In this document: piece after piece, positions 6,927-37,015 of the stretch
Layout: each line of letters starts with the position of its first letter
How positions within the stretch are numbered: the first letter of the stretch is position 1
NCBI GenBank assembly: GCA_010672825.2
Contig: JAAHFU020000004.1
Coordinates: forward strand, 744,001 to 808,000
Direction of reading: 5' to 3'
Length of the DNA stretch: 64,000 bases
Origin: Leptolyngbya sp. SIO1E4
GTDB lineage: Bacteria > Cyanobacteriota > Cyanobacteriia > Phormidesmidales > Phormidesmidaceae
Program-made: the position numbers and the translations under genes
Notes under the pieces: generated by a model
The model's input: only the letters and a program-made list of their open reading frames with translations
Database searches by the model: none
Told to the model about the DNA's origin: nothing

Positions 6927-6959
6927 AGGTTTTGCCTGGTCGCACCAATTTTTCTTTGA

Positions 6960-12065: not shown

Positions 12066-12112
12066 ATCTTCACAAAGGATTCATCTTCACAAAGGATTCA
12101 TCTTCACAAAGG
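12062..12112. repeat. Three perfect tandem copies of a 17-bp unit
   Basis: ATTCATCTTCACAAAGG occurs at 12062-12078, 12079-12095 and 12096-12112 without mismatch. It lies directly upstream (minus-strand sense) of GAATAAG, so it would place repeated sequence just behind the promoter. It could be an activator-binding array or simple slippage expansion. Confidence 0.9.
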
Positions 12113-16425: not shown

Positions 16426-17763
16426 TTAAGGAGAAATTGTCAGGTGCTGTAGACTGGCGCAAAGCTGCCGTGCAAAGCGGCTGTTAGCAGTGCGGTTGTG
16501 GGGGATTTTGGCTTCGGACTCGGCTTCGTCAATCAGCCGGTCCGCTTCTTCAGCTAGCAAAGCGTCCAGGCGATCGCCCAGCGCCTGCAACTGTTCGGCA
16601 GAGGTAAAGTCCAGGGCGGTCTCGCGCACGCGAGATTGGAGCTGGCTCAGCAGCGCACTCCGCACGTCGGCCCGAAAGCGTTTCAAATTCATCAGGCGAG
16701 TGACGGCGACTTGATTGGTCAGGCCTAGTTTGGGGGCGATCGCTTTCATTCCCTCGCCTTCGCAGTGAAACAGGTGCAGCGCTTTGAGAAAGGCGTCCGC
16801 TTTCGGAGGCCGTTTGCACCGAAACTGGTCACAGTAGGCTTGCAGCGTGTCGCTCATAGCGACGGCCAGAGCGGCCTCGAACTGTTGGCGATAGGCCTGC
16901 AAAAAGTCATCTTGCTGCACGTCGCTGTCGCTGGGTTCGGGAGCGGGCAGTTCCGGGCTTGTTTCAGCGTCTAGAGGTTCTAGCAGCGGCAACCCACCCC
17001 GCACATGAATGCGGTACTGCCGCAGCCAGTAGGCTAACTGTCGCAACTGGCCCAGTACTATTCGAGGGGGTAGTTTGGCATTGATGGCGTGCAGTTGGCG
17101 ATCACTGGGCATCTGACACCGCCCTCGGTTGCGACCGGCAGCCAGTTTGAGGCGATCGCGGCGATAGACGGCGTGATAGCGGCTGAGCAACGTTTCCGCA
17201 GCGGTGATTTCGGCTTCGGTCAGGCGATGAAACTCGCCCAGAATTCGCGCTAGCTGGCTCACCTGGGTATCGTTCAAAATGGCCCAGTCGCTGACTCGAT
17301 AGAGCCCCCGCTCAATCAGGAATTGGTTGAGTTCGCGATGATTGCGCGTCAGGTGAGCGGCCCAGCCTTCTAAACTGGCGCGGCCTGGGGTGTAGGTCTC
17401 AACGATGTGAACGCCAAATGGCTGATAGTCCTTCAGGGGCTGACCTGCGTCATCCAACACAAAGGGCAGCAGGTCGGCACTGCGAAACTGGTAGTAATCG
17501 CCAAACTGACTGACCAACTGAAAGCAGGCGCGGAGGACGGCATGGGAGACCGCGCAGCGCAAACACAACAGCGCTAGGGCCATCTGCCCCTGCTGCCAAT
17601 CACTCAGCAATCGCGCCTGCAACAGGCGATGATCGTCATCATTCTCTTCGACGGCGTTGGGGGCTTGCTCCAGCAACCAGGTGTAGGCCGCATTTAATTG
17701 CTGTCGCCGACTTTGCCCGGTGCTGTCAAGCTTTTGTAAATGCCAGTAGTCAGAAACACTCAT
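16426..17763 (-). CDS. Divergent sigma-70-like protein heading the CHAT-CHASE2 operon, copy 1
   Basis: 445 residues. Residues about 58-100 (LCLRCAVSHAVLRACFQLVSQFGD) and about 120-165 (ETYTPGRASLEGWAAHLTRN, then ERGLYRVSDWAILND) can be read as stretched sigma regions 2.1-2.4; the second resembles the FDP-x-KG-x-F-x-TW motif. Residues about 325-380 (LFHCEGEGMKAIAPKLGLTN, VTRLMNLKRFRADVR) look like a region-4 helix-turn-helix. The sigma assignment is inference from these resemblances; an unrelated DNA-binding protein is the alternative. The TGAATAAGY element stands 80 bases upstream, so it may drive its own gene. First gene of a four-gene operon ending at 12157; the paralogue is at 31959-33308. 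Confidence 0.7.
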   Translation of the reverse strand: MSVSDYWHLQKLDSTGQSRRQQLNAAYTWLLEQAPNAVEENDDDHRLLQARLLSDWQQGQMALALLCLRCAVSHAVLRACFQLVSQFGDYYQFRSADLLPFVLDDAGQPLKDYQPFGVHIVETYTPGRASLEGWAAHLTRNHRELNQFLIERGLYRVSDWAILNDTQVSQLARILGEFHRLTEAEITAAETLLSRYHAVYRRDRLKLAAGRNRGRCQMPSDRQLHAINAKLPPRIVLGQLRQLAYWLRQYRIHVRGGLPLLEPLDAETSPELPAPEPSDSDVQQDDFLQAYRQQFEAALAVAMSDTLQAYCDQFRCKRPPKADAFLKALHLFHCEGEGMKAIAPKLGLTNQVAVTRLMNLKRFRADVRSALLSQLQSRVRETALDFTSAEQLQALGDRLDALLAEEADRLIDEAESEAKIPHNRTANSRFARQLCASLQHLTISP

Positions 17764-17817
17764 AAAGTCAAAACCTAAAGGCGATCGCTCAAACCGTTTC
17801 CGGCTGGCAATGATGAC

Positions 17818-17843
17818 TATCTCTGGCAGTGTAGGGCTTATTC
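17818..17843 (-). promoter_or_regulatory. TGAATAAGY promoter-like element, before sigma-like operon 1
   Basis: TGAATAAGC, 10 bases, CAG, 2 bases, ATA. GAATAAG starts 80 bases before the ATG at 17763. This is the only candidate promoter seen for the four-gene operon. Confidence 0.6.
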
Positions 17844-17924
17844 AGGTGACCTCATCGCTTACGCAGTCATGGTTTTAATAGACTGTTCTGGCCTAATCTG
17901 TCTGTTCGGCATCCACGCGATCTC

Positions 17925-20690
17925 CTATTGTCCATTGCCGATGAGAATGAACGGTGCCCAGTAGTAGGGATGACTGTAGCCGGGATAGGCGTCGCTAACT
18001 GACGTACCATCTCGACTCATGGGTGGGGCACCGGCACGGACGCTGCCCTCACCCCCGACCAGGCTCAGGTCATCAGCCATTAATGCTTGCTGTGCCCGCT
18101 TCAGGGCTTCTGCTTTAGAAAACCCATTGTCTATAGCTGTGTAGAACGCATTCATGAGCACCTGAGTGCCGTTATCACTGACCTGCCAGAGAGAGGCCAT
18201 TACCGCTTTGGCCCCGACTCGCTGTAGCTGAAAGCCGAGTCCCAAGATTTCGACCCCATCACCGAGTTGAGGACTGCCTAGGGCCGTTTCACAGGCACTC
18301 AACACCACTAAATCGGCATCCAGCTGCGACCACTCTCGCCGCATTTGCCGCAGGTTGACGGTCTGACCATTGCCAAACAGCACGAACGACTCATCGGGAG
18401 CACCTGAAACAAACTTGCCGTGGGTCGCTAGATGAATCAAGGTTGAGCTGCCCAACAAACGCTTGAATTGTTCGGGGGTAAAGTCGTCGTTGATCAGGAC
18501 TTCTGCTCCCGGCACTTGTGCAGCCAACAGTTCGACCTCTTGCAGGGTCGCGGGCAAATCTAAAAAGTCGAAGGCATCATCCCCAACGTTGACGGTAAAG
18601 GCACAATCGGCACAGGCGGCGGCCAGCAAGGAGCGATCGTCTCGGGGGTGGGCGGCAAAATCGGCTTCCGAGGCTGCGGTGATTTGACTAAAGCTAAAGC
18701 GTTCGGCTAGCCATTGCTCACCGTCGTAAAGGGCGGTCAAAGGCACATAGCGCAACACGCCATCTGGGGCAAAGATGATGTGCTCAGCACCCACGGCAGC
18801 CAAATCATTCTCCAACGGGGCAATCACCCATTCATAAAGCTGCTGCGCCAATTCACGCGGGTCGCTGCGGCGATCTTTCAGGGCTTGCCCAAAGGCCACG
18901 ACGGTGCGGTTGAGTTCCAGCGCATCAACCTCTATGGGGTAGCGCACAGGAGGCGCATCGGCAGAGACCAGCACCAGTTCCAACCGATCTTCGAGCACAA
19001 GGGGATACAGAATCACGCTGGTTTGAGGCAGTTGCCGCAGGCTAGCCTGCAGATCGGTGAAGTTCCCAATATCGACCGTGGCGCGAGTCTCGGCCCGCAG
19101 TTGGTCAACGGCGGCGATGATCTGGGGATGATCAAGCCAGTCGATGAAGCTGGTATAGACGACATCCTGCTGAGCTTCGAGTTCTGCGAGGCGAGCTTGT
19201 TCGTCGGGGGTAAGGGTGTCGAGGGCTTGCAGGCGTTGGAGTTCGGTGCCGGTGAGCAGCACATCTTCATAAAGCGCTAGCACGTCTTCTTCCGGTTGCC
19301 AAAACTCCACTCCGGTTTCGGTTTGGGCGTTGCGTTGCACGTCGTCCAGGTAATCGTCGAGTTCTTGCACTTTCAGCAGGTCGAGGACGCGCTGGGCTTC
19401 GATGATACGGTCTTGTTGCAGCAGCAGATCGGCCAGCAGGCGGTAGTCATCGGCGACGGTGTCGGTGTAAGACTGTTGCAGCCCAACATCCAACTCTCGG
19501 ATATCCCCCCGGATAGATTCGTGCACCTCGACCGACGCTTTGAGGAAAATGATGGCCAACTCTGGCTGCGCTTGAGCACTGAGTAGTTTGCCAATATCAC
19601 CCAACGTTCTAGCTTCCCCAGCCCGAATATCCAGTTCTCGTTTAATGAATAGACTTTGTTCAAAATACTCCAGTGCTGTGGAGTAGTTCTCGAGTGATTG
19701 ATAGGCAATCCCGATATTCCCTAAAACACGCACTTCACTGGCCCTGTCTCCTAGATCACGAAAAAGAGAAAGACTTTGTTCAAAATACTCCAGCGATGTG
19801 GGATGTTCTTCAATTAATCCATAGAGACTACCGATATTCCCCAGCGTAAGCGCTTCTGCAGCCTGATCGTCCATTTCTCTTGCGAGGGACAGACTTTGTT
19901 GGTAGTAGTTCAGCACTTCTGAGTAGTTTCTGAGTAATAGATAAGCACTGCCGATATTTGCAAGGGTAGTGGCTTCTCCAAGTTGATCTCCCGATTCTCT
20001 TGTAAGGGCCAGGCTGCGCTCGAAATACTCCAGTGCTCTGAAGGAGTTTCCGAGTAAATAGTAGACAAGACCAAGATTATTGAGGATATCGGCTTCCCCA
20101 ACCTGGTCACCTAGCAATTGAAAAAGGGGCAGACCTTGCTCAAAATGCTCTATTGCTTCGGGATAGTTGCCGAGTGAAGAGTAGACAAGACCAAGATTAT
20201 TGAGGATATCGGCTTCCCCAACCTGGTCACCTAGCAATTGAAAGAGGGGCAAACCTTGCTCAAAATGCTCTATTGCTTCGGGGTAGTTGCCGAGTAATGA
20301 ATATGTAGTGCCAATTTTGTAGAGAGTGGTGGCTTCCCCAGACAGATGTCCCAGTTCTTGATAGATTTCCAGTGCCCGTTGCCAAAGCAGTAAAGCTTCT
20401 TGAAACTGTCTGGCGTTGTACTGTCTATTCCCCTCTTGTAAGAGGGAGTTCGCTTCAGCTTGGCGTTCATAATCAAATGTTTGAGCAAGCTGAAGCGGGA
20501 CTGGTCTGAGCGATTCGGGTGCTTTGGAGAAATCGGGTTGCTGGAATGCGGTGGGCTCAGTTTGTACTAAGAGAAACCGAGTTTCTTTGAAGGAACTCGG
20601 TCTCTGCACGGCAGTGGCGGAGACCTGCAGGGCGGGGACGAGAAGGGCGGTGAAGGTGGCGAGGCTGAGGAAGTTGGCGGCGCGGCGCAT
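17925..20690 (-). CDS. Exported TPR-CHAT protease, subtype III
   Basis: About 921 residues from the ATG at 20688-20690; an upstream ATG would lie inside the promoter-like element. A signal peptide spans residues 1-27, TPRs about 75-400 and CHAT about 590-920. The catalytic pair is H757 in HLATHGKF and C800 in LSACETALG. Two neighbouring TPR units are identical over 40 residues (NYPEAIEHFEQGLPLFQLLG block), and their DNA at about 20071-20310 is almost the same, indicating a recent duplication. The CHAT part matches 39567-42737: both have the extra cysteines AAxCAxCxFTV and the GLGFQL/GLGYQI motif. It has its own element 60 bases upstream, divergent from the lipoprotein gene. Confidence 0.9.
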   Translation of the reverse strand: MRRAANFLSLATFTALLVPALQVSATAVQRPSSFKETRFLLVQTEPTAFQQPDFSKAPESLRPVPLQLAQTFDYERQAEANSLLQEGNRQYNARQFQEALLLWQRALEIYQELGHLSGEATTLYKIGTTYSLLGNYPEAIEHFEQGLPLFQLLGDQVGEADILNNLGLVYSSLGNYPEAIEHFEQGLPLFQLLGDQVGEADILNNLGLVYYLLGNSFRALEYFERSLALTRESGDQLGEATTLANIGSAYLLLRNYSEVLNYYQQSLSLAREMDDQAAEALTLGNIGSLYGLIEEHPTSLEYFEQSLSLFRDLGDRASEVRVLGNIGIAYQSLENYSTALEYFEQSLFIKRELDIRAGEARTLGDIGKLLSAQAQPELAIIFLKASVEVHESIRGDIRELDVGLQQSYTDTVADDYRLLADLLLQQDRIIEAQRVLDLLKVQELDDYLDDVQRNAQTETGVEFWQPEEDVLALYEDVLLTGTELQRLQALDTLTPDEQARLAELEAQQDVVYTSFIDWLDHPQIIAAVDQLRAETRATVDIGNFTDLQASLRQLPQTSVILYPLVLEDRLELVLVSADAPPVRYPIEVDALELNRTVVAFGQALKDRRSDPRELAQQLYEWVIAPLENDLAAVGAEHIIFAPDGVLRYVPLTALYDGEQWLAERFSFSQITAASEADFAAHPRDDRSLLAAACADCAFTVNVGDDAFDFLDLPATLQEVELLAAQVPGAEVLINDDFTPEQFKRLLGSSTLIHLATHGKFVSGAPDESFVLFGNGQTVNLRQMRREWSQLDADLVVLSACETALGSPQLGDGVEILGLGFQLQRVGAKAVMASLWQVSDNGTQVLMNAFYTAIDNGFSKAEALKRAQQALMADDLSLVGGEGSVRAGAPPMSRDGTSVSDAYPGYSHPYYWAPFILIGNGQ

Positions 20691-20724
20691 GGTGGGCTTT
20701 CCTTTCAGAGATGACAACAGCATA

Positions 20725-20750
20725 TCGCTCTGAACCAGGAACACTTATTC
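20725..20750 (-). promoter_or_regulatory. TGAATAAGY promoter-like element, before TPR-CHAT gene
   Basis: TGAATAAGT, 10 bases, CAG, 2 bases, then CGATATGCTGTTGTCA, the extended form. GAATAAG starts 60 bases before the ATG at 20690. A second copy pointing the other way begins 51 bases away at 20801. Confidence 0.65.
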
Positions 20751-20800
20751 ACCTTCAAATTATCTTTTGCGGATGAGCAATCCCGCTAGTCGAGCTGGAT

Positions 20801-20826
20801 GAATAAGTCTCAGCAGCGCAGCCATA
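20801..20826 (+). promoter_or_regulatory. TGAATAAGY promoter-like element, before pilin-like lipoprotein gene
   Basis: TGAATAAGT, 10 bases, CAG, 2 bases, ATA. GAATAAG starts 81 bases before the ATG at 20882. It is divergent from the element at 20725-20750. Confidence 0.6.
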
Positions 20827-20881
20827 GAGCGTGACAGCAGCGGACGTGACTACTCGCTGTGTTGTCATTAGGAGCATTCTC

Positions 20882-21388
20882 ATGCATCAGCCAAAGTCTC
20901 GAAATAAACAACGTCTGGCTCTTTGGGGGCTGGGCGGCGTGTTCTTGCTCGTCGGCTGTAGCCACATCGTAGGTACGGCATTTGAAAACCAAGCCAACCG
21001 AGCCCGCGAATCGGAAGCCGATAATTACGTGGGGGCGATGTTGCGAGGGCAGCAGGCCTACTTTATCGAAGCAGAACAGTTCACCGATGATCTGGCCAGC
21101 CTAGAAATTAATATTCCACCTGAAACCGAGAACTACCGTTACGAGATCGCGCTCGATGCGACGGGGCAGGCCGCTCTGGTGACTGCCACAGCAAAGCTGC
21201 CAGAGCTGCGGAGTTTTACCGGAGTTGCCTATGCGATCGCGGATGCTCCAGATGAGTTTCCTAACCTCGACACGATACTGTGCATTAGCGACGAGCCTCA
21301 ACAGTCGCCACCAGCACCGCCGCAGTTTGTGCAAACCGGGGAGCAAGTCGAAGTGGTTTGTGCAGTAGGCTCCCAGGTAGCCGAGTAG
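20882..21388 (+). CDS. Putative lipoprotein with type IV pilin-like (G/H) mature domain
   Basis: 168 residues from the ATG at 20882, chosen because AGGAG stands 9 bases before it and the promoter-like element lies upstream. The N-terminus MHQPKSRNKQ is followed by a hydrophobic stretch ending in the lipobox LLVGC, predicting a lipoprotein. The following region (ESEADNYVGAMLRGQQAYFI, then INIPPETENYRY) closely resembles the mature part of cyanobacterial type IV pilin-like proteins. The GFTLIE prepilin peptidase site of real pilins is absent. So this looks like a pilin domain re-targeted to a membrane as a lipoprotein. It is part of the element-linked gene set, perhaps a substrate or sensor of the exported proteases (inference). 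Confidence 0.7.
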   Translation: MHQPKSRNKQRLALWGLGGVFLLVGCSHIVGTAFENQANRARESEADNYVGAMLRGQQAYFIEAEQFTDDLASLEINIPPETENYRYEIALDATGQAALVTATAKLPELRSFTGVAYAIADAPDEFPNLDTILCISDEPQQSPPAPPQFVQTGEQVEVVCAVGSQVAE

Positions 21389-21435
21389 CCCCTGGCAGAA
21401 GCACCAAAAACACTTTCCGCTCAAAACATTTCTCC

Positions 21436-21473
21436 ACTTGGCTTAACCACAATTGCTGTGCGTTGAGCCAAGT
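21436..21473. terminator. Long stem-loop after the pilin-like gene
   Basis: ACTTGGCTTAAC and GTTGAGCCAAGT form a 12-pair stem with one wobble pair around a 14-base loop. There is no T tract after it, so it may be an RNA-stability or attenuation hairpin rather than a simple intrinsic terminator. Confidence 0.5.
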
Positions 21474-21591
21474 CAGAACTGACTTGAATAGTACGTCGTT
21501 GAACCCGCGTCTATTGGCCAGACAGATAGACGCGGTTGAAGCAATTGCTCATTGGGATATCGTTCAACACGCCATCACGTTTTGTCCATAT

Positions 21592-21617
21592 GAATAAGCT
21601 CCCCAGGCTCAGAACTA
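21592..21617 (+). promoter_or_regulatory. TGAATAAGY promoter-like element, before the 1671-residue CHAT gene
   Basis: TGAATAAGC, 10 bases, CAG, 2 bases, then CTATATGCTGATG, the extended form. GAATAAG starts 61 bases before the ATG at 21653. Confidence 0.65.
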
Positions 21618-21652
21618 TATGCTGATGAAGACACTGAGCCTCAGAATCATCA

Positions 21653-24600
21653 ATGCATCCAGCCACCCGACTCTACGCAAATGTGATCGCCCTGGCCCTC
21701 GTCTTTCCCACCCTCACCACTGCCCAAGCGGTGGAACTCACCCAAGCGCCTGCGAGAGAAGCTGAAGAACGGCGATCGCAGTCAATTAACGGCACTCTAG
21801 GCACGGATGATGCGGTTCTCGATGGCGGTGAGTATTACGAGATTCATACCTTTGAAGGTGCTGAGGGACAGACGATCACCATTGATCTCGTCAGCGAGGA
21901 GTTTGATACCTACCTGGTGGTGTTTGGGCCAGAGGGAGATCGGGTGGGTGAAAACGATGATGGCGACAACAGCAATGCCCAAATTTGGTTGACGCTGCCT
22001 AGCACCGGAACCTATACCGTTTGGGCGACCTCGTACAGTGCGGGAGAAGTGGGTAGCTATCAGCTCAGTTGGCAGGAAGATACGACACTAGCGGAATTGC
22101 AACAGGCATTGCGGGAGGCGAGGGAAGGGGGCGATACTCCAGAGGAGTCGCTACGCGATCGCACTGCCGAATTGAAGGCATTATTTGATGTCGCAGATTT
22201 CTACCAAGATCGCGATCAGAATCTTGAAGCACTGGAGACGTATCAAGCGGTCTTAGAACTGTCTCAAGAACTGGGTGATAGCAATTATGAGTTGATTAGC
22301 TACCAGGTAATGTCCGGCATATATAACGGCATTGGTATCGACAAAAATCGTGAAGCGTCAGAACTGTACCGCGCTGAACAGTGGCAACAAGCTTTGGAGT
22401 CAGCCCAGCAAGGACTGATGGCGGCGGAGCAAGCGGTGCAGCTTGCCAGACAAGGAAAAGCCAGAGCAGAAGCAATTAATAGTGAAATATTTATCCCTGA
22501 TTTGACACTAGCCGTTCCACGCTCTTTGGTAACGTTGGCTGGTTCTTATCAAAACATCAGTAATAGTCAGCAGGAACAGGCAAGAGGTTTAATTGCTGAA
22601 CAAGATTATCGACAGGCTGAATCTTTGGAAGCAGAAAGTATTGCTGCTTCGGAAAAGGCTGTGGAGGCAGCTCAAGAATCACTTATTTTGATGAGGAATA
22701 GTGAAAGTCTCAATGATATCTACGCACTTGATTTGCTCAACGCGGTAGCTGCTGTGGCGCTGAGTCACGATATGGTTGGCTCAGCACACTACAGAGTTCG
22801 TTCTTTAAGGCTAAACAATGAAGGAGAATTTGAACACCAGGTAGATGCACTTGAGCAGGCGCTAGTAGCTTATGAAACAGCATTGCCATTCCACCGTGAA
22901 AGTGAACAGCTACGGGAACATGATGAGGTCATTGAACGCATTGGTATATCTGAAGTTCAACAGGTAAAGTTTACACTTTTGGGTATTATCAATGTTCGTC
23001 AAAGCCTCAGCAGGGCTTATGGCGAATTGGGTCAGTATTTAGAGGGGATATCTGTAGCCGAACGGACAATTGAGCTTTCTCGCCAACTTCCTGACCGTGA
23101 ATCTGAGTTGACTGCTCTTATTGACCTGAGCAATCTTTATGATTATCTGGGTGAACAGTATCTTGAAGAAGAAGCTTACGAGGAAGCCCTTGCGGCTCAG
23201 GAGAAAAGTCTTTTTTATGCTCAAGAGCGACTGAAAGTAGCTCAATCCCTTGTTGATTCCCCAGAACTCTCCGATTTTGAGTCTAATACCTATGCTGAAA
23301 GAGGCATTGATATTGTTAAAAACGCCCTCCAATCAATCTCTACAGCCTATGCGGGGATCCGTTGGGTCTACGTAGCACAGGATGATTATGAATCAGCTTT
23401 AGAAATTACCCTCAAAATATTAGAAATTGATGAGCAAATAGGAAACCCTGTATTTATTTTTTCCACACTGAGAGCGCTATTCGTCGATTACGATCGCCTG
23501 GGTCGTTATCAAGAAGCATTAGAGGTTATGGAACGCAGCCTTGAATTGGCACGCCAATTTGACAATCAGGGAGAGGAGTTGTCAGCGATCACAACAATTG
23601 CATCCCTTCAACAAGATTTGGGTCAATATCCAGAAGCAATTGCAAATTATGAAGAAGCCTGGTTGCTAACAATAGAAAATGAAATTCCAGAAGAGCAAAT
23701 AGGTATTCTACTAAATTTAGGTGTGTTGTATGGAACTCAAGGCGATCACGAGAAAGCATCAGAAAATTATGAGCAAGCACTCGAAATGGCGAGGGCAGCG
23801 CGTCAGAATTTAGAAACAGCAAGTGTCGGTGCATTGGAATCGTTAGCCCCAGAATGTTCGCTATTGTCACCGATTGACCCATCTCTCGATATAGAGCTAC
23901 CGCCAGAACTTCCTGGAGTTGATGAGCGAGACGATATAGAACGACTTGAGAGAAATCGACAGCGGTGCATCAGACAAACTTGGGATGTAGAGCAAAAAGC
24001 ATTATCCAGCCAAGCCGCAGGCTATGCAGAACAAGGGCGCTACACAGAGGCAATTGAATTACATAGACGTTCACTAGAAATTATCAGAACCCATCGTCCT
24101 GATCGGGTTCAAGAAGTTAGCGCTCTCAATGGAATTGGAGCGACCTATGCTGATCGTGGCGACTATTCAATCGCAATAGAAGAGTATTTACAGGCATTAG
24201 ACATTGCATTAGACATTAATCATCAACCCAGCATTCTCTTACTCCGCAATAATCTTGGCGCTACATTCTTCGGGCAAGGAGATTATCCGACCGCATTAGA
24301 GCACCTTCGAGAAGCTTTAACTCTGGTACAAGAAACTCGCCTACGGCCTCAAGAAGTTTACATCCTAAGTAATATTGGGAGAACATACTACGACCAAGGC
24401 GAATATGAAAAAGCGTTAGAGTTCTTTCAAAAGGGGCTTGTTCTGAGTGAACAGTTAGGCCAGAAACAAGATCAAGCATCCGTTCTTTCTGGTTTGAGCA
24501 TCGTTAGCCTTGATCAGGGGCAATATGATCAAGCTTTAGATTACGCCCAACAATCCTTGGAGCTTTTTCAAGAAACGGGAGTAAAAGCCAGCGAAGCAGG

Positions 24601-26668
24601 TTTATTGGTGCTGATCGGGCGAATTCACTTTATCCGAGGTAATTATGCCGAAGCGCTTGATGTAAAACAACAAGCACTCACCATCAACCAAGAGATTGGC
24701 GACCAAGACGGAGAAGCCTACGCCCTCCAACAATTGGGAACACTCTACAGCCAACTAGGACAATACGATCGCGCCCTCGCCCTCAATCAACAAGCGTTGG
24801 AGATTTCGCAGCGGATTGGCGATCGCTCTCGTGAAGCCTCAACCTTTGATATCATCGGCAGTCTGTACGCTGAGCAGGGCAAATCCCAGGAAGCGCTGGA
24901 TGCCTACGCTCAAGCACTCGCAATTTGGCAAGACATCGGCAGCCCTGTCGGAGAGGCGCGCAGTCTTCGCAACGTCGGTTCCCTTCGAGAACAGCTTGGC
25001 GACTATGCGGATGCTAAGCAAGCCTTGCAACAAGCGCTGGATCTTCAGCGACGCGTTGGCGCACAAGGCCATGAGGGGCTAACGCTTAACGGATTGGCAA
25101 AAGCTCAGACCGGCGAAGGCAACTTGGACGAAGCCACTACACTGCTGCGACAGGCCATCGCTCTGCATCAAGAAACCGGCGATCGCCCTGGTCGGGCTCA
25201 GGCGCTCAGTGATTTGGGGGCAGTGTTGCTACAGACGGGTCAGCTTACCGAGGCCGAAACGACCCTCTATGAGACGATCTCACTGCTGGAATCTCTCCGC
25301 CCCTCGGAACTCAAAGACACCGACAAAATTGCCCTGTTTGATACCCAACTCGAAGCTTACGACACCCTACAGCGCGTGCTGGTGGCCCAGAACGACCCGG
25401 CGAAAGCGCTGGCAGCACTAGAAGTGGCCGAACGGGGACGGGCGCGGGCGTTTGTGGAGTCGTTAACCGTGCGACTGGGCGATCGCTCGGACCTGGAGAT
25501 TGATACAGACTCGCCCGATCTCGACCAGATGCGACAGATTGCCCAACAGCAAAACGCCACCCTCATCGAATACTCCATCGTCAGTGCCGATGATGCCCCG
25601 GAACTATACATCTGGGTGATTGCGCCGGATGGTGACATCGCCTTTCGGCAACAATCGTTAGCGGAGGTTGAGTTAGCCGACCTGGTGATTGATGCGCGGG
25701 ATGCGATCAGGGTGCGGGGTGGCCGCGCCGGTGCACCGCCTCAACCGAGATCGGAAACCCTGGCCCAGCGCCGCGCCGAAACCAACGCCAAGCTCACTCA
25801 ACTGCATGAGTTGCTGATTGCCCCCATTGCTGATTTACTCCCCACCGATCCAGAGCAGCGGGTGATCATGATTCCCCAGGGCGATTTGTTTTTGGTGCCC
25901 TTTCCGGCCCTGATAAATACTGATGGCAATTACCTGATTGAGCAGCACACGCTCCTGACTGCCCCCTCCATTCACGTGCTGGATTTAACCCGACAGCAGC
26001 GACGGCAGCGGAGCGATGTCACCTCACCCAACGACGTGCTGGTCGTGGGGAATCCCGACATGCCAACGGTGAAGATTCCCTCTGAAGATTGGGAAGGAGA
26101 ACTTTCCAGCTTGTTCTGGGCAGAGCAAGAGGCCATAGAAATTGCCGATTTGTTTGGGGCAGAAGCGTTAATAGGGGATGCCGCCACCGAAGCCTACATC
26201 AAGCAGCAAATGGCTGAGTCGCGATTGTTGCATTTAGCGACCCACGGCTTGTTAGAGTACGGCTTTCCCGACGAGTCTGGGGTGCGAGATTTGCCAGGGG
26301 CGATCGCCCTCACCCCTGGCTATGGTGAAGACGGTTTGCTCACCGCCGCTGAAATCTACGGGATGGATCTTAATGCCGACCTTGTTGTGCTGAGCGCCTG
26401 CGACACCGGGCGCGGCAGAATCACCGGCGATGGCGTGGTGGGCTTGTCTCGTGCCTTCATCAGTGCCGGGGCTCCCAGCGTGGTGGTGTCACTCTGGGCC
26501 GTACCAGATGCTTCCACGGCTGAACTCATGGTGGAGTTCTATAACCAGCTTGAGCAAGGGCAGGATAAAGCCCAAGCACTGCGTCAGGCCATGCTCACCA
26601 CGATGCAGCAGTATCCCGATGATCCTAAACACTGGGCAGCCTTTACCCTGATTGGCGAAGCCAACTGA
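21653..26668 (+). CDS. Giant exported PPC-TPR-CHAT protease, subtype I
   Basis: 1671 residues, the largest gene here. A signal peptide (1-26) is followed by a PPC domain at about 45-145 (IHTFEGAEGQTITIDLVSEEF, NDDGDNSNAQIW, TLPSTGTYTVWA). A very long helical TPR array runs from about 165 to 1250, interrupted by a charged segment near 740-790 (DERDDIERLERNRQRCIRQ). The CHAT domain is at about 1350-1668, with H1531 in HLATHGLLEYG and C1583 in LSACDTGRGRI. The middle of the array (about 22400-24600) is clearly more AT-rich than the two ends. The CHAT domain is a close relative of those at 2979-6011 and 47062-50046, so the same catalytic head is attached to very different TPR arms. Confidence 0.92.
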   Translation: MHPATRLYANVIALALVFPTLTTAQAVELTQAPAREAEERRSQSINGTLGTDDAVLDGGEYYEIHTFEGAEGQTITIDLVSEEFDTYLVVFGPEGDRVGENDDGDNSNAQIWLTLPSTGTYTVWATSYSAGEVGSYQLSWQEDTTLAELQQALREAREGGDTPEESLRDRTAELKALFDVADFYQDRDQNLEALETYQAVLELSQELGDSNYELISYQVMSGIYNGIGIDKNREASELYRAEQWQQALESAQQGLMAAEQAVQLARQGKARAEAINSEIFIPDLTLAVPRSLVTLAGSYQNISNSQQEQARGLIAEQDYRQAESLEAESIAASEKAVEAAQESLILMRNSESLNDIYALDLLNAVAAVALSHDMVGSAHYRVRSLRLNNEGEFEHQVDALEQALVAYETALPFHRESEQLREHDEVIERIGISEVQQVKFTLLGIINVRQSLSRAYGELGQYLEGISVAERTIELSRQLPDRESELTALIDLSNLYDYLGEQYLEEEAYEEALAAQEKSLFYAQERLKVAQSLVDSPELSDFESNTYAERGIDIVKNALQSISTAYAGIRWVYVAQDDYESALEITLKILEIDEQIGNPVFIFSTLRALFVDYDRLGRYQEALEVMERSLELARQFDNQGEELSAITTIASLQQDLGQYPEAIANYEEAWLLTIENEIPEEQIGILLNLGVLYGTQGDHEKASENYEQALEMARAARQNLETASVGALESLAPECSLLSPIDPSLDIELPPELPGVDERDDIERLERNRQRCIRQTWDVEQKALSSQAAGYAEQGRYTEAIELHRRSLEIIRTHRPDRVQEVSALNGIGATYADRGDYSIAIEEYLQALDIALDINHQPSILLLRNNLGATFFGQGDYPTALEHLREALTLVQETRLRPQEVYILSNIGRTYYDQGEYEKALEFFQKGLVLSEQLGQKQDQASVLSGLSIVSLDQGQYDQALDYAQQSLELFQETGVKASEAGLLVLIGRIHFIRGNYAEALDVKQQALTINQEIGDQDGEAYALQQLGTLYSQLGQYDRALALNQQALEISQRIGDRSREASTFDIIGSLYAEQGKSQEALDAYAQALAIWQDIGSPVGEARSLRNVGSLREQLGDYADAKQALQQALDLQRRVGAQGHEGLTLNGLAKAQTGEGNLDEATTLLRQAIALHQETGDRPGRAQALSDLGAVLLQTGQLTEAETTLYETISLLESLRPSELKDTDKIALFDTQLEAYDTLQRVLVAQNDPAKALAALEVAERGRARAFVESLTVRLGDRSDLEIDTDSPDLDQMRQIAQQQNATLIEYSIVSADDAPELYIWVIAPDGDIAFRQQSLAEVELADLVIDARDAIRVRGGRAGAPPQPRSETLAQRRAETNAKLTQLHELLIAPIADLLPTDPEQRVIMIPQGDLFLVPFPALINTDGNYLIEQHTLLTAPSIHVLDLTRQQRRQRSDVTSPNDVLVVGNPDMPTVKIPSEDWEGELSSLFWAEQEAIEIADLFGAEALIGDAATEAYIKQQMAESRLLHLATHGLLEYGFPDESGVRDLPGAIALTPGYGEDGLLTAAEIYGMDLNADLVVLSACDTGRGRITGDGVVGLSRAFISAGAPSVVVSLWAVPDASTAELMVEFYNQLEQGQDKAQALRQAMLTTMQQYPDDPKHWAAFTLIGEAN

Positions 26669-26794
26669 CAACCCACATGAGAGCAATATCAGCGACTGTA
26701 TGACTTGAATGAGTCTGGGGGAGTCAGCAATAGACAACATCAGCAGCAACCAGTATTTTCTCGCTGCCATGGATGTCCTTTATTGCCCTCTATC

Positions 26795-27298
26795 ATGACA
26801 AAAGCAACAGACTCCAAATCTCAAAAATCTAGCTGCGGTGGCTGCTTGAGCCTCATCTTGATGGGCTTTGTTGCCTTCGGTGTCCATAACTGTAAGATCA
26901 CCCATAGCGGGCCGATGAACGCCGAAAATGCGGCAGCGCTAGAGCAAGTCGCAGCACCAGTGCGCACTTATCTGCGCCAGGGAGACTGCGATCGCCTCTA
27001 CCAAGAGTTCTTTCAAGCACTGCATGCCGAGCTATCGAGTGAAGACTTTGCTCCTATCTGCAACGACATGAGTGCCGAATATCAGGCGGTTGAGTCCGCC
27101 ACACAAGTTTCTACCCACTGCGAAACTACCCGTTATCTGTTCAAAGGCGAAGAATATGGCAACTGCGTCGTGAACTATCGTCTAGCACTGAACGATGGCA
27201 CTACCGTTCGAGAAATTCATGAACTGTACCTGGAGAATGGTGAATATCAATTAATCGGTTTCTACTGGCCAGAGGAAGAAGAGCAAGCCTCCAATTAA
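26795..27298 (+). CDS. Small membrane-anchored hypothetical protein
   Basis: About 167 residues from the ATG at 26795; the longer frame upstream has no obvious start signal. A single membrane helix at about residues 14-34 (CGGCLSLILMGFVAFGVHNC) is followed by a globular domain (VRTYLRQGDCDRLYQEF, then a strand-rich end YRLALNDGTTVREIHELYL, YQLIGFYW). The pattern of helices and then strands recalls NTF2-like or DUF3887/DUF4864 proteins, but this is not secure. Several cysteines (positions near the C and NC motifs) may form disulfides outside the cell. It lies 126 bases after the giant CHAT gene and may share its transcript; no element precedes it. Confidence 0.6.
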   Translation: MTKATDSKSQKSSCGGCLSLILMGFVAFGVHNCKITHSGPMNAENAAALEQVAAPVRTYLRQGDCDRLYQEFFQALHAELSSEDFAPICNDMSAEYQAVESATQVSTHCETTRYLFKGEEYGNCVVNYRLALNDGTTVREIHELYLENGEYQLIGFYWPEEEEQASN

Positions 27299-27299
27299 G

Positions 27300-27329
27300 T
27301 TTACTAGGGGGCGATCGCTCCCTAGTAAA
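27300..27329. terminator. Bidirectional hairpin terminator between convergent genes
   Basis: TTTACTAGGG and CCCTAGTAAA form a perfect 10-pair stem around a 10-base loop holding GCGATCGC. CATTCTTTT follows on the plus strand and A-rich sequence lies on the other side. It sits exactly between the convergent genes ending at 27298 and 27340. Confidence 0.7.
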
Positions 27330-27339
27330 CATTCTTTTG

Positions 27340-30300: not shown

Positions 30301-30513
30301 AGTCCCTTCGTAGGAATGAACTGCGAAATAGGCCCCATCCTCTAACGTTTGGCTGGTCTCATCCAGTTGCCCGGTCACGGAACCGGGTGTCACTTGCGCC
30401 AACTGTCGGGGTTGGGGGGTGGCCCACAAAATTTCGGGGAGCGTTAGGCTACTGCCCCCTGCTAGCAGCAATACAATCAGCAACCGACCAAAAATGTTTG
30501 AGGAAACTTGCAT
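27340..30513 (-). CDS. Exported PPC-TPR-CHAT protease, subtype II
   Basis: About 1057 residues from the ATG at 30511-30513, which begins a proper signal peptide (LLIVLLLAGGSSLTLPEILW); the longer frame upstream would bury it. PPC lies at about 50-145 (FAVHSYEGTAGEIVTLELVS, LRRDDNSGDGTNAQF). Eight or nine near-identical 42-residue TPR units of the kinesin-light-chain type follow (PDVATNLNNLAGLYQVQGRY). The CHAT domain is at about 730-1055, with H879 in HIATHGFFL and C963 in LSACDTGLGD. It is the intact counterpart of the IS-split gene. Unlike most relatives it has no TGAATAAGY element in front, so it may be read from the caspase-remnant transcript 215 bases upstream or from another promoter. 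Confidence 0.92.
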   Translation of the reverse strand: MQVSSNIFGRLLIVLLLAGGSSLTLPEILWATPQPRQLAQVTPGSVTGQLDETSQTLEDGAYFAVHSYEGTAGEIVTLELVSEDFDTFIFLVSPTGELLRRDDNSGDGTNAQFTIELPETGTYQIGVISNIPGEIGQYTLSLRLASAAEQAQQRAIHLNQQAFERYQQGRYEEAESFLQQSLEILRGQLGERHPDVATNLNNLAGLYQVQGRYGEAETLFQQALEIYQEQLGKHHPDVATNLSNLAGLYQVQGRYGEAETLFQQALEIQREQLEEHDPNFATSLNNLANLHRLQGRYGEAETLFQQALEIYQEQLGKHHPDVATSLNNLAALYQVQGRYGEAEPLFQQALEIRREHLGEHHPILATSLNNLAVLYTDQGYYREAEPLFQQALEIQREQLGEHHPDVATSLNNLALLYHEQGRFGEAEPLFQQALEIRREHLGEHYPDVATSLNNLAGLYDAQGRHGEAIPYLKAGLEIEEWNLELNLVTLTETQRQAYAATIAHTTDRAVSLSLQANDAAPDAQPLALTTLLRRKGRVLDTGTNSLQVLRQNLTPADQVTLDEFTTVRQQLATLTFNPPADLPPEQYRSQLAQLEAQAADLEKTLAQRSAVFRAETEPVEIAAVQAQIPANGVLIEFTRYRPFNAANPTNFWGNDRYAVYLLFPDGRIEAIDLGDAAEIDAAVQSFTRLLQDRSTDLKRTGAAPRIRPGVVEQVTGDIKTLVFDPIAPYLQDTKHLLISPDGQLNLLPFEALQPETGGDYLVQQYQISYLNSGRDLLKFNLTEPSRNPAVIVANPDYDTATDALSRSLGEGQEERATGVAGRRSTELSQLQVGPLPGTAAEARAIEPLLPNATFLTEGQATENVLKTVQSPRILHIATHGFFLADVEPPIAGGSSGLGAITSDNSLASAAPVGRPIENPLLRSGLALAGFNTRTSGNEDGVFTALEAANLNLFGTQLVVLSACDTGLGDIASGEGVYGLRRAFSIAGAETQLMSLWQVSDFGTQSLMARYYENLTDGMGRSEALREVQLEMIAEGGQYSHPYYWAAFILAGNWQPLD

Positions 30514-30544
30514 GGTATTGACCTGAGAGTGTGGTTTGGAATTT

Positions 30545-30590
30545 GGATGGGTGAATGAGTGGATGAGTGGGAGGGTGGATGGGTGCGCAG
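30545..30590. repeat. Low-complexity GGATGRGTG-type repeat tract
   Basis: A purine/T-rich tract of imperfect units such as GGATGGGTG, AATGAGTG, GATGAGTGGG and GTGGATGGGTG just upstream of the subtype II CHAT gene. It resembles the short repeats common in cyanobacterial intergenic DNA. Confidence 0.7.
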
Positions 30591-30727
30591 TTGCCAGTCT
30601 GATCAGGGCAAGACTGTGAGCCATTTTGATGCTGTGGCGAACATCGGAACAACGCTGGGTGTCTTAATCAAGATGGCCTGCGCTATGTGTTGTTGGTTCT
30701 TGAGACGGGAGCGATCGCGCCTTAACC

Positions 30728-31402
30728 CTAGGCCCCTTCACCGTTGGGGATTTCAACGACCTCAATGATGGTAGAGAAAGCCGCGATCGCCCCCGAATCC
30801 ACTGCTGAAGACTCCTCCACCGTCTCAGAAATAATGCTGGCGTTGTTGCCTGAGCGAGACAGCGAGTCTAAATCTCCCAGCAAATCCGTTACCAGGTCTA
30901 AGGGATCCCCCTCTTCTAAGCCCACAAATCCGCGACTGCGACCTGCCCCTCTGGAGATAATTTGTAGACTTCGCAGCAGTCCCCTCAGCGGGGCTTGACT
31001 AACCAGGGTCATGAGTTCTGCATAACCTGTTCCCGCCACTCTAAAGCGGACGCCATCTTCTTGAGTTGGCACAATCAGCTCTTCATCTAAGATATTGGCC
31101 CGAGATGGCGGCATGGCAGAGTCATCGGTCAGCCTGAGGATGTTGCTGGGGCTAAAGCCAAATCGATTCACCAAAAGCTGAGACTGCATGTCAACATCGG
31201 TCAGGCAGCCTGATAAGTCGCTGATCTTGGGATCGGGGTAGGTATTAATCCTGATCAGTAGAGCGAGCTTGCGAGATGTGCTCTGAGCTAAAACCTGGCC
31301 ATAACGATTAGCCTGACGCAGAAATCCGGTTTGGCTCAGACCCATTGCAGTCAGGACAGAACCGGCGAACTGGAGGAAGTGACGGCGTTTCATTTGGGAC
31401 AT
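30728..31402 (-). CDS. Caspase-family remnant lacking the catalytic core
   Basis: 224 residues. The N-terminus matches the caspase at 593-2899: Tat motif KRRHFLQ, then SRKLALLIRINTY and LLVNRFGFSPSNILRLTDD. After about residue 115 it jumps to sequence matching the very C-terminus of that protein (LLGDLDSLSRSGNNASI, FSTIIEVVE). Roughly 540 residues are missing, including the catalytic His and Cys segments and the DUF4384-like part. The frame is kept and both ends are conserved, so the product would be an exported, catalytically dead mini-caspase. It may be a pseudogene from an in-frame deletion, or a decoy or inhibitor (inference). Its ATG overlaps the end of the small secreted-protein gene upstream. 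Confidence 0.8.
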   Translation of the reverse strand: MSQMKRRHFLQFAGSVLTAMGLSQTGFLRQANRYGQVLAQSTSRKLALLIRINTYPDPKISDLSGCLTDVDMQSQLLVNRFGFSPSNILRLTDDSAMPPSRANILDEELIVPTQEDGVRFRVAGTGYAELMTLVSQAPLRGLLRSLQIISRGAGRSRGFVGLEEGDPLDLVTDLLGDLDSLSRSGNNASIISETVEESSAVDSGAIAAFSTIIEVVEIPNGEGA

Positions 31403-31608
31403 GACTCACGGAAGTCCAACGACAATAGCTGGAAGCTCTCAATGCTCAGTATTGAGGGCCACAATGCGAAAGCGGTTTGCTGTACCTGACTCAGCAGAGT
31501 GGCGATCGGGGTGTGGGCCCGGGCCGTCAATGCAGGGGTAGTCAGCAGCGCAGACGCTGCGCTGAGGGCAATCAGCAGAGAATAACTAGCGGGGTGATTG
31601 AGTTTCAT
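31390..31608 (-). CDS. Small secreted peptide gene, coupled to the mini-caspase
   Basis: 72 residues with a clear signal peptide (residues 1-31: SLLIALSAASALLTTPALTARA) and a 40-residue mature part with no recognised motif (LLSQVQQTAFALWPSILSI). The stop lies 13 bases inside the mini-caspase gene, so the two are probably co-translated. The TGAATAAGY element is 66 bases upstream. It could be a true small exported protein or the stub of a larger decayed gene. Confidence 0.5.
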   Translation of the reverse strand: MKLNHPASYSLLIALSAASALLTTPALTARAHTPIATLLSQVQQTAFALWPSILSIESFQLLSLDFRESCPK

Positions 31609-31648
31609 GGCAAGTGAAGAGAAACGGATGAGCGATTGTGCTTATCCA

Positions 31649-31674
31649 TATGGCTGGCAGGGACGAACTTATTC
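31649..31674 (-). promoter_or_regulatory. TGAATAAGY promoter-like element, before small peptide and mini-caspase
   Basis: TGAATAAGT, 10 bases, CAG, 2 bases, ATA. GAATAAG starts 66 bases before the ATG at 31608. It is divergent from the copy at 31770-31795, about 96 bases away. Confidence 0.6.
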
Positions 31675-31769
31675 ACTCAGGGGTTAGTGTTTCACGCTGG
31701 TTGCAGGGCAGCAGTGTGAAGGCTAAAGCGACGCGCGATCGCCCCAATCACACGGATCCCACAGGGAGT

Positions 31770-31795
31770 GAATAAGTCCTTCCGGTGCAGCAATA
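31770..31795 (+). promoter_or_regulatory. TGAATAAGY promoter-like element, before sigma-like operon 2
   Basis: TGAATAAGT, 10 bases, CAG, 2 bases, ATA. GAATAAG starts 189 bases before the ATG at 31959, the longest spacing in the set. The leader holds a 21-codon ORF at 31832-31897 (MKIISLLARADQ...), possibly a leader peptide or chance. Confidence 0.55.
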
Positions 31796-31958
31796 CCTGG
31801 GTGTGACAGCCCACCTCAGGACAATGACGCCATGAAGATTATTTCTCTGCTGGCCCGCGCCGATCAGCCCAATTGCCGTCCGCCCCCTTTTTCCTGACTG
31901 CGATTGGATTTCCTTTTACTCGATGCAAAACTAATAACAGCCTGCCCCTGCAAACTCC

Positions 31959-33308
31959 ATGGAAACTGCATTTCGATACTGGCAACTGGTGCGCCTTGAC
32001 AGCTCAGGTCACTGTTACACCCAAGTGATGTCTCAGGTGCAAACTTGGCTGCAAGCAACCTTTGCTGATTTAATCAGCGACCCAGCAACCCCTGATCGGC
32101 AACTGCAGACAGCACTCCTTGCTATCTACCAAGCCAAACAGGCCAGCGCAGACCTGGCCGAACTCAGTCTGCGCTGCTACATCAGCCATCGGATACGCCT
32201 CGTCTGCCTGCAGTTGGCCAGCCAGTTTGGTGACAACTATGGCTTTACCACGGCAGACCTGTTGCCGCTGGTTCTAGACGATGACGGCAAGCTGTTGACC
32301 CCCTATCTTCCCCTCAGTCTAAAAATTTTGGATACCTACGATCCGACCAAGGCGCAGCTCAATACTTGGGTGACTCGGCTGGTGAAAAACCATCCTGAAC
32401 TTGACCGAGCATTGCTTGAGCGCGGGCTCTATCGGGCCAGCGACTGGGCGATTCTAAATGACACCAACCTGGAGCAGCTGCAGCGTATTCTGCGGCAGTA
32501 TCACCTGTGTAGCGAAACCGAGGTTGCCCTGGCCAGCCAACTCTTGGAGCAGTATCACCAGGTGTATCGGCAAGACCGTTTGCAGCAGCGGAGAGCCGGT
32601 CAGCGTGGGCGCTGTCTGCCCCCGACCCCAGAGCAGCTGAAGCGCATGGATACCCAACAGTCAGCCAAGACGGTGTTAACCCAACTCAAAGCTCTGGCGG
32701 CGCAGCTGCGACACTATCGCATTCATGTCCGCAGTGGTCGCCCCATCCCCTACCGTGACGAGACTGACTGGGAAAATCACGTCCCTGACGGCCTCGGGGG
32801 CCAATCCTCAGAAGCTGAAGAGAATCAAGATGCCTTTTTAAAGGCCTATCGACAAGCTCTCCAAGACTGTCTAGAGAACGTGCTAACCCAGGTCATGCAA
32901 GCCAACATCGCGAAGCTCCAGAAACGTCGACCGCCTAAGAATGAGGCCTATGTGCGAGGGCTTTACCTCTTCCACTGTGAGGGGCTATCCATGGGAAATT
33001 TGGCTGCTCAGGTGGGGTTAGCGACCCAGGTGCAGGTTAATCGTCTATTGCAGCTCAAGCGCCTTCGGGCTGATGTGCGTCATCTGCTGATTCAGCAGCT
33101 ACAAGTGCGGGTTCGAATGGAGGCCCTCGACTACATCTCTGCAGAGCGGCTGAATCAGATTGATCAGACCCTGGAGCATCTGCTGACGGAACGGGTTGAT
33201 CAGGTGATCAACGAAGCCGCCAGCGAAGCTCAGATCCCCCAGGGTCGTACGGCCAAGAGCGTATTTGCCCATCAGCTCTGTCAAACCATCCATCACTTTA
33301 TGGAGTGA
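31959..33308 (+). CDS. Divergent sigma-70-like protein heading the CHAT-CHASE2 operon, copy 2
   Basis: 449 residues, alignable by eye over its whole length with 16426-17763. Shared blocks are SLRCYISHRIRLVCLQLASQ with FGDNYGFTTADLLPLVLDDD, then DTYDPTKAQLNTWVTRLVKN and ERGLYRASDWAILNDT. The C-terminal block LFHCEGLSMGNLAAQVGLAT with LLQLKRLRADVRHLL is shared too. YDPTKAQLNTW is close to the region-2 consensus of sigma factors, and the C-terminal block resembles a region-4 helix-turn-helix. The assignment remains inference. The next gene begins 6 bases after its stop, and the order of the following genes repeats operon 1. Confidence 0.7.
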   Translation: METAFRYWQLVRLDSSGHCYTQVMSQVQTWLQATFADLISDPATPDRQLQTALLAIYQAKQASADLAELSLRCYISHRIRLVCLQLASQFGDNYGFTTADLLPLVLDDDGKLLTPYLPLSLKILDTYDPTKAQLNTWVTRLVKNHPELDRALLERGLYRASDWAILNDTNLEQLQRILRQYHLCSETEVALASQLLEQYHQVYRQDRLQQRRAGQRGRCLPPTPEQLKRMDTQQSAKTVLTQLKALAAQLRHYRIHVRSGRPIPYRDETDWENHVPDGLGGQSSEAEENQDAFLKAYRQALQDCLENVLTQVMQANIAKLQKRRPPKNEAYVRGLYLFHCEGLSMGNLAAQVGLATQVQVNRLLQLKRLRADVRHLLIQQLQVRVRMEALDYISAERLNQIDQTLEHLLTERVDQVINEAASEAQIPQGRTAKSVFAHQLCQTIHHFME

Positions 33309-33313
33309 TCATC

Positions 33314-34501: not shown

Positions 34502-34557
34502 AGTCGCCTAATCAGAGCCCGAGGGGTTCCCTGCACTGTTAATTGAGTGGATTTGAG

Positions 34558-37002: not shown

Positions 37003-37015
37003 GGAGTACAGCGTT

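Follow-up and report, generated by a model that had tools for sequence, protein, structure and literature searches.

A putative diverged branch of the sigma-70 superfamily in cyanobacteria and its candidate promoter element at caspase and CHAT genes

In cyanobacteria, gene neighbourhoods holding an 'ECF sigma factor' (extracytoplasmic function) and a DUF1822 protein have been described beside EACC2-caspase proteins, and transcriptional control by a sigma factor regulating many genes has been proposed for them (eLife 2021, PMC8195603). The word 'promoter' occurs 0 times in the main text of that paper, and its passages on these neighbourhoods describe no regulon. A census of cyanobacterial sigma-70 factors, based on regions 2 and 4 and on Pfam thresholds, delivered 4193 homologues (Gevin, Latifi and Talla 2024, PMC11119718); the ECF definition quoted there places regions 2 and 4 fewer than 50 amino acids (aa) apart. 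Here, we describe two genes for sigma-like proteins (copy 1 and copy 2) and a recurring promoter-like element, TGAATAAGY, in a 64 kb piece (the window) of contig C4 of the 8.22 Mb genome of Leptolyngbya sp. SIO1E4 (labelled G000). No account of a TGAATAAGY promoter was found in the open-licence PubMed Central literature searched. Our best explanation, which we hold to be likely, is that the two proteins belong to a diverged sigma-70 branch that, in the RNA polymerase (RNAP) holoenzyme, reads TGAATAAGY-N10-CAG-NNN-TA and drives its own operon together with a nearby set of mostly export-type genes.

An initial reading of the DNA letters and open reading frames (ORFs), made without database searches (the sequence-only reading), had taken both proteins for a divergent sigma-70 branch of about 445 residues, with two sigma-like blocks unusually far apart and the element ahead of each gene. 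The claimed length is borne out by both ORFs, which are full length (Table 1). The two copies are 46% identical over 443 columns and were the sole matches of the sigma-like family in a search of the whole genome. The proposed YDPxKAxLxTW-like block fits copy 2 well and copy 1 only loosely, the C-terminal helix-turn-helix (HTH)-like block LFHCEG...LGL...LKRxRADVR was found in both copies, and the distance from W137 to the HTH is indeed unusual at about 200 residues. Each copy heads an operon, one on each strand, in which the sigma-like gene is followed by a DUF1822 gene, a CHAT-CHASE2 gene, and one further gene; the CHAT domain retains its His motif and its Cys motif in both operons. The order of sigma-like gene and DUF1822 gene recurs at 15 of 15 named homologue loci (records of Nodosilinea, Leptolyngbya, Phormidium, Geitlerinema, Cyanothece, and Kaiparowitsia); at 12 of these 15 loci, the DNA examined also contains a CHASE2 relative downstream of the sigma-like gene.

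A bridge of profile comparisons supports placing the two proteins in the sigma-70 superfamily, as a cyanobacterial branch that has diverged strongly. Pfam and NCBIfam missed both window proteins and gave no sigma match. A search of the genome with Sigma70_r2 delivered 16 loci, of which the weakest (L183, 27 bits) encodes a protein of 425 aa at C1:58537-59811 (minus strand) with a DUF1822 gene next to it. L183 passes the Pfam cut-offs of both Sigma70_r4 (30.0, cut-off 24.1) and Sigma70_r2 (24.6, cut-off 24), and a second copy of this L183-type long sigma is found at C4:55743-56939 (minus strand). In comparisons of hidden Markov models (HMMs), the 99-row profile of the window family gave a 99.2% match (E 5.9e-20) to the L183 family of 29 members, with 310 aligned columns spanning region 2, the middle, and region 4 in the right order, while one reversed and ten column-shuffled control profiles reached at most 1.2%; all E-values of these comparisons hold for single comparisons. 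The same profile matched L183 alone at 96.5% (E 8.5e-10), a 17-row profile matched the L183 family at 97.2%, and the L183 family matched ordinary sigma profiles at 93.6-96.9%. In this HMM-HMM comparison, of the kind that the sequence-only reading had proposed, the direct match to ordinary sigmas was not significant and the bridge through the L183 family was strong. The 99-row alignment includes both window copies, copy 2 twice; the truncated frames L067 and L068 and frames below 140 bits were left out of it and of the 98-row tree discussed below.

Among 35 more distant members, the commonest names were weak yet of the right kind: Sigma70_r4_2 in 5 (best E 2.6e-4, among the matches listed for 25 of 36 families) and TIGR02937 sigma70-ECF in 9 (best E 5.7e-4). 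The best Sigma70_r4_2 match of the family is weaker than that of L183 (24.6 bits, 1.9e-5, cut-off 25.7). Other names returned when the two proteins and the 17-row alignment were searched against Pfam, NCBIfam, and PDB sequences (FERM_M, MatP_C, DUF2336, calmodulin) were set aside as weak and unrelated, none being common to more than 2 of 17 members, as was a geranyl diphosphate methyltransferase match of 15.1 bits against a cut-off of 400.

The predicted structure of copy 2 is consistent with this placement. The AlphaFold2 model has a predicted local distance difference test score (pLDDT) of 82 and a predicted template modeling score (pTM) of 0.48. In Foldseek, 14 of the first 16 rows are chains of RNAP holoenzymes or initiation complexes, which we read as sigma, with a best E of 0.056, which is weak. 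In VIA-align, whose rows carry entry titles and not chain names, all 50 of the 50 listed rows come from sigma or RNAP holoenzyme entries with Z scores of 6.9-8.2, which is moderate for a helical model; seven rows cover region 2 alone (2.9-4.2 Å over 93-105 residues), and the rows titled RPSD and RPSB are presumably Bacillus sigma-D and sigma-B. No confident match of the whole protein to an unrelated fold was found among the listed structure matches. When the region 4 fragment was modeled alone (pLDDT 91), its long helices dominated the fold search, and SigL region 4 appeared in VIA-align at rank 4 (Z 4.7, 3.6 Å, 77 of 80 residues aligned), on a par with unrelated proteins of helical fold. Together with the L183 bridge to a Pfam-recognised sigma, the structural alignments throughout to sigma and holoenzyme entries, moderate in Z and weak in Foldseek E, support the proposed descent.

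The 9-mer TGAATAAGY, proposed in the sequence-only reading as the element, is real: the window has 14 copies where 0.88 would be expected, and 0 of 100 dinucleotide shuffles reached 14. It is, however, the first third of a longer signal, TGAATAAGY-N10-CAG-NNN-TA. With bases 1-9 set by the search pattern itself, CAG stands exactly 10 nt after TGAATAAGY (positions 20-22) at 13 window sites and AAG at the remaining one, position 26 is T in 12 of the sites, and position 27 is A in all 14. For CAG to fall at the same place in 13 of the 14 sites, the binomial probability is 8e-23 before correction for about 50 possible places. The spacing of TGAATAAG, CAG, and TA is constant and the intervening bases vary. 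As had been claimed, the element precedes each copy, 81 nt (17844, minus strand) from the start codon of copy 1 and 190 nt (31769, plus strand) from that of copy 2, and all 14 sites face an ORF start within 300 nt.

This fixed spacing fits the -35 and -10 elements of a promoter, and the presence of the element upstream of both sigma-like genes is what a self-regulating sigma factor would be expected to show. If T26 and A27 correspond to -12 and -11, TGAATAAG would lie at -37 to -30, CAG at -18 to -16, and TA would form the -10 core. A T at position -7 is seen in only 1 of the 14 window sites and in 6 of the 49 sites at homologues, and the -10 thus differs from the housekeeping TATAAT.

In the whole genome, TGAATAAGY-N10-CAG has 22 matches and the reversed pattern 0. 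Six of the 22 lie on the other contigs C1, C2, and C6; five of these are absent from the full-motif list, and because they lack TA at positions 26-27 they were taken as chance, while the match at C6:317371 has TA there. The full motif TGAATARG-N12-AG-NNN-TA has 19 matches against 3 in the control. Sixteen of the 19 are on contig C4 and 12 inside the window, for which the binomial figure of 2e-21 is in part circular, as the window itself supplied the motif.

The element is furthermore tied to the sigma-like family across genomes. Within 350 nt upstream, the strict motif precedes 49 of 103 unique homologous frames against 0.25 expected (uniform bases), the 103 being all unique frames from the loci examined, a subset of all homologue matches with copy 2 in and copy 1 out. 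At these homologues, the free position 3 is only A or C and the free position 7 only A or G. In 46 homologue elements chosen without regard to positions 26-27, many of them from close kin and with the last 60 nt before each start left out of the scan, T26 is kept in 45 and A27 in 44. Every one of the 15 named homologue loci has at least one element site. For L026, L028, and L030 none lies within 350 nt, and each locus has its site farther off: two of these sites are upstream on the strand of the gene, at 0.7 kb and 2.6 kb, and the third, in L030, is a CA variant on the other strand. No element was found in the sister L183 family (0 of 28 members) or at the ordinary sigma loci of the window's genome (0 of 15).

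Across 63 genomes of the taxonomic family, the mean number of sites is 5.4 where the gene is present (n=35) and 1.6 where it is absent (n=28), against 0.77 and 0.68, respectively, for the reversed-pattern control. The Mann-Whitney p of 8e-6 (1.3e-5 without the window's genome) is not corrected for kinship, and a site excess over the control is still seen in genomes without a detected gene.

Moreover, the element changes with the sigma-like tree. In the 98-row tree, made by a quick method in which long branches that meet are flagged, base 3 needs one change (TGAATA to TGCATA), with A in 36 of 36 elements of a 45-row clade and C in the other 14. In G180, whose sigma is far diverged, 12 sites are found, and all 10 listed are TGCATA[G/A]G, the same as the element of its own sigma gene; in G064, G128, G268, and G358, four genomes of the same family code, TGAATAAG accounts for 33 of the 35 sites listed. 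Taken together, the ties between element and family, the -35/-10-like geometry, and the change along the tree support the claim that the sigma-like family may read TGAATAAGY. Six alignment columns fully track the base 3 change, among them residues 356 and 358, with which the predicted recognition helix begins; assigning base 3 to them was rejected as a result and kept as a lead, because four other columns fit equally and the tree needs a single change. An outer clade of 22 homologues (e.g., L126, L153, and L155) is a deeper branch without the TGMATA element, and several of its members have a different recognition helix, SWDQ[AT]RRILNPG[ED]LL, so that another promoter is presumably read there.

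In the window, the candidate regulon consists of the two sigma operons, five CHAT-TPR genes, a caspase (Peptidase_C14) gene, a caspase-like fragment, TPR, PPC-domain, and type IV pilin-like genes, and two genes for which Pfam gave no match at E up to 0.01. By a simple sequence test, 8 of the 12 non-sigma products have a hydrophobic stretch at their start and 2 an RR-containing start resembling that of twin-arginine translocation (Tat) substrates; the product of gene 11503 did not pass this test for hydrophobic or Tat-like starts, and that of gene 6104 was outside it. Similar sets are seen elsewhere. In G064, from another family code, ten sites were read in 35 kb around the sigma gene, facing two CHAT-TPR genes, three RTX-TPR genes, RTX and TPR genes, one gene without Pfam match, one cut frame, and the sigma gene itself. 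In G180, 11 sites were read, with targets including CHASE2-CHAT, RTX-CAP, TPR, DUF1194, and ABC ATPase genes, the sigma gene, and a frame of 452 aa that has no Pfam match; of the other four sites, two have short or cut frames and two have no frame of at least 60 aa in reach. The Pfam scan of targets covered all but one open frame of G064 and the two short or cut frames of G180. Over the 43 gene-bearing genomes of a phylum sample, 170 sites stand against 94 of the reversed pattern.

Several results weigh against the reading of the family as a sigma branch with its own promoter class. None of 17 close members matches a sigma Pfam model at E up to 1, the family members scanned apparently did not reach the curated Pfam cut-offs for Sigma70_r2, r3, r4, and r4_2, and in the 35 distant members the sigma models appear in just the 5 (Sigma70_r4_2) and 9 (TIGR02937) cases given above. 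Compared directly with profiles of the genome's own sigmas (group 1/2, group 3, and ECF), the family reached at most 18.4%, which is not significant, and the 17-row alignment against L183 alone gave 4.5%. The fold search with the C-terminal fragment was unspecific, with no sigma in the 50 Foldseek rows listed. In known sigmas, the Q of the region-2.2 motif DLxQ is a contact to the beta-prime clamp; it is present in all 12 sigma sequences compared and replaced in the family (P in 61% of rows, DL[LF]P-x-VLDD). On the side of the element, the strict motif is missing in 54 of the 103 homologous frames, the outermost 22 tree rows are all without it, and base 3 changed just once, so that its fit with the recognition-helix residues amounts to one event. 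Without G000, G064, G128, G180, G268, and G358, 100 sites stand against 87 in 37 genomes, and of three plasmid loci one, that of Nostoc HK-01, has the element, at the sigma gene only. The regulon beyond the sigma gene itself is clear in only some genomes and thin elsewhere.

The replaced Q is the main objection and keeps in play a rival in which the proteins are sigma-derived DNA-binding activators that do not bind core RNAP and act in class II fashion at -35, with another sigma contacting the -10. A class II activator would likewise give a fixed distance to the -10. We nevertheless hold this to be unlikely: in every row of the 99-row alignment with a residue there, the columns of L134 and W137 in region 2.3 show a single residue type, which is hard to explain without a role at the -10 or in RNAP binding, the -10 is unlike TATAAT (T at -7 in 1 of 14), and L183 of the sister family retains both regions at Pfam cut-off. 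That a different sigma or a transcription factor reads the element, with the sigma-like gene as merely one of its targets, would agree with the 1.6 sites (against 0.68) in genomes without a detected copy. This appears very unlikely, given that presence of the gene predicts the number of sites, that the element sequence tracks the sigma-like tree, and that the element is missing at the sister sigma family and at ordinary sigma loci. Finally, the element might be a repeated feature at the level of DNA or RNA (a mobile repeat, an attachment site, or a processing site) and not a promoter, and the identical 27-mers at C3:217515 and C6:297827, and at one window site and C4:187137, mean that some copies may spread by duplication. 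We regard this explanation as exceedingly improbable, as the bases between TGAATAAG, CAG, and TA vary at fixed spacing, the window sites all face a nearby ORF start, and no named homologue locus is without a site.

With descent, element, spacing, operon, and, in some genomes, the regulon supported by computation, the diverged sigma-70 branch may work as follows. Both sigma regions, 2 (about residues 64-156) and 4 (about 284-389), would be retained but far apart, with a conserved helical middle joining them and a C-terminal extension behind. The CHASE2 membrane protein is the likely sensor of an outside signal, and its CHAT protease or the DUF1822 protein, a candidate regulator, the likely keeper of the sigma, the CHAT-CHASE2 protein together with DUF1822 holding or releasing it. 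Free sigma would direct RNAP to TGAATAAGY...CAG...TA promoters, its own promoter first, with the TGAATAAG block at -37 to -30 as the putative contact of region 4 and TA as the -10 core, and would thereby raise its own operon and the mostly export-type set of CHAT-TPR, caspase, TPR, pilin-like, and PPC genes. We lean, by a little, toward a wider reading, in which a separate and uncatalogued group of two-domain sigma-70 factors, marked by a long conserved helical middle, a C-terminal extension, and an altered RNAP clamp contact, runs its own self-amplifying transcription circuit for caspase/CHAT systems on chromosomes and plasmids, gated by the membrane CHAT-CHASE2 protease and DUF1822, with promoter and sigma co-evolving.

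If this is true, surveys of bacterial sigma factors by domain models miss whole branches, and the sequence gives access to the promoter class, the operon, and a share of the regulon of one such branch. The cyanobacterial clusters of caspase-like genes (orthocaspase and CHAT) would gain a defined transcriptional switch, and when and why these genes are expressed would become directly testable. The promoter code, in which A or C at base 3 (TGAATAAG or TGCATAAG) goes with recognition-helix residue 358, offers a simple test of specificity.

Relatives are also carried by plasmids: 18 cyanobacterial plasmid records (hosts Tolypothrix, Nostoc, Leptolyngbya, Calothrix, Pseudanabaena, and others) hold one over at least 80% of the query, 5 of them typed as conjugative and 7 as mobilizable. 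Leptolyngbya boryana and Nostoc HK-01 are among the strains with a plasmid-borne homologue. Among the matches listed (15 of 18), 14 are annotated as hypothetical protein and one is unannotated. The neighbours in three plasmid loci (DUF1822 family, CHASE2, CHAT, caspase, and TPR) agree with the window, and no relative was found in the phage collection searched.

Some element sites have features of their own. The element at 2985 (minus strand) overlaps the stop codon of the CHAT-TPR gene 2979-6041 (window 2979-2985), which thus terminates within the promoter-like element of the caspase gene 593-2899. Between the element at 31649-31675 and the caspase-like fragment 30728-31402, there is a nearer start codon with a short frame. 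The same element is identical across 27 bases to G000:C4:187137-187163 (L185), which heads a 322-aa trypsin-like protease starting MKLNHPASYSLLIALSAASAL; the first residues of this protease also follow the window element, yet no frame of at least 100 aa does, and the window copy looks like a truncated duplicate. Another identical 27-base element (the TGAATAGG variant) is shared by C3:217515-217541 and C6:297827-297853 on two other contigs and is perhaps part of a repeated or mobile piece.

Table 1. Genes, protein blocks, and element sites in the window, in order of position
Feature	Position	Strand	Basis or remark
Element, AAG variant, ahead of caspase (Peptidase_C14) gene 593-2899	2959..2985	-	
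Element ahead of CHAT-TPR gene 2979-6041	6049..6075	-	
Element, GA for TA at 26-27, ahead of TPR gene 6104-6874	6901..6927	-	
Element ahead of PPC-domain gene 11503-12009	12040..12066	-	
Fourth gene of copy 1 operon, without Pfam match (E up to 0.01)	12157..12855	-	relative at same place in L035
CHAT-CHASE2 membrane protein, third gene of copy 1 operon	12837..15296	-	Pfam; CHAT His/Cys motifs kept
DUF1822 protein, next gene of copy 1 operon	15302..16387	-	Pfam PF08852 3.6e-28
Sigma-like protein copy 1, 445 aa	16426..17763	-	full-length ORF
Region-4-like HTH block, copy 1 (approximate limits)	16684..16800	-	alignment, helices of homologous copy 2
Region 2.3/2.4-like block YTPGRASLEGW, copy 1	17362..17394	-	translation and alignment
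Element, copy 1: TGAATAAGC-N10-CAG-AGA-TA	17818..17844	-	motif match
Element, GA for TA, ahead of CHAT-TPR gene 17925-20717	20725..20751	-	
Element ahead of type IV pilin-like G/H gene 20831-21388	20800..20826	+	
Element ahead of CHAT-TPR gene 21653-26668	21591..21617	+	
Element facing caspase-like fragment 30728-31402	31649..31675	-	fragment: Pfam C14 E 0.006, below cut-off
Element, copy 2: TGAATAAGT-N10-CAG-CAA-TA	31769..31795	+	motif match
Sigma-like protein copy 2, 449 aa	31959..33308	+	full-length ORF, structure model
Region 2.3/2.4-like block YDPTKAQLNTW, copy 2, residues 127-137	32337..32369	+	translation, alignment
Region-4-like HTH block, copy 2, residues 328-366	32940..33056	+	model helices; HMM-HMM alignment to Sigma70_r4 protein
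DUF1822 protein, copy 2 operon	33305..34501	+	PF08852 1.2e-23
CHAT-CHASE2 membrane protein, copy 2 operon	34543..37002	+	Pfam; CHAT His/Cys motifs kept
Fourth gene of copy 2 operon, without Pfam match (E up to 0.01)	36989..37714	+	relatives at same place in L026, L028, L030, L033
Element ahead of CHAT-TPR gene 39561-42737	39505..39531	+	
Element ahead of CHAT-TPR gene 47032-50046	46998..47024	+	
Element ahead of gene 50178-51059 (no Pfam match, E up to 0.01)	50078..50104	+	one N-terminal hydrophobic stretch in product
Element ahead of gene 53837-54382 (no Pfam match, E up to 0.01)	54424..54450	-	N-terminal hydrophobic stretch in product

Compared with the system described in 2021, the window operons are alike in their sigma gene, their DUF1822 gene, and a protein of caspase fold whose C-terminal domains vary and include CHASE2, and the passages of that paper on its sigma factor do not distinguish between the L183 type and the window family (PMC8195603); the L183 type may be the ECF sigma with DUF1822 reported there. 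The window family was probably missed by the 2024 census, because its Pfam thresholds are apparently reached by 0 of the 52 family members scanned (PMC11119718). The L183-type long sigma is among the closest systems compared here, being homologous along regions 2 to 4, similarly long, and likewise followed by DUF1822, and differs in being recognised by Pfam and in lacking the TGAATAAG element in all 28 members. Relative to ECF (group 4) sigmas, regions 2 and 4 of the window family lie about 200 residues apart and not fewer than 50, whereas its region 2.3/2.4 sequence xxTWxxRLxKN reads like the ECF block FRTWLYRIARN. The -35 of ECF sigmas has a GAAT core, which resembles the window element.

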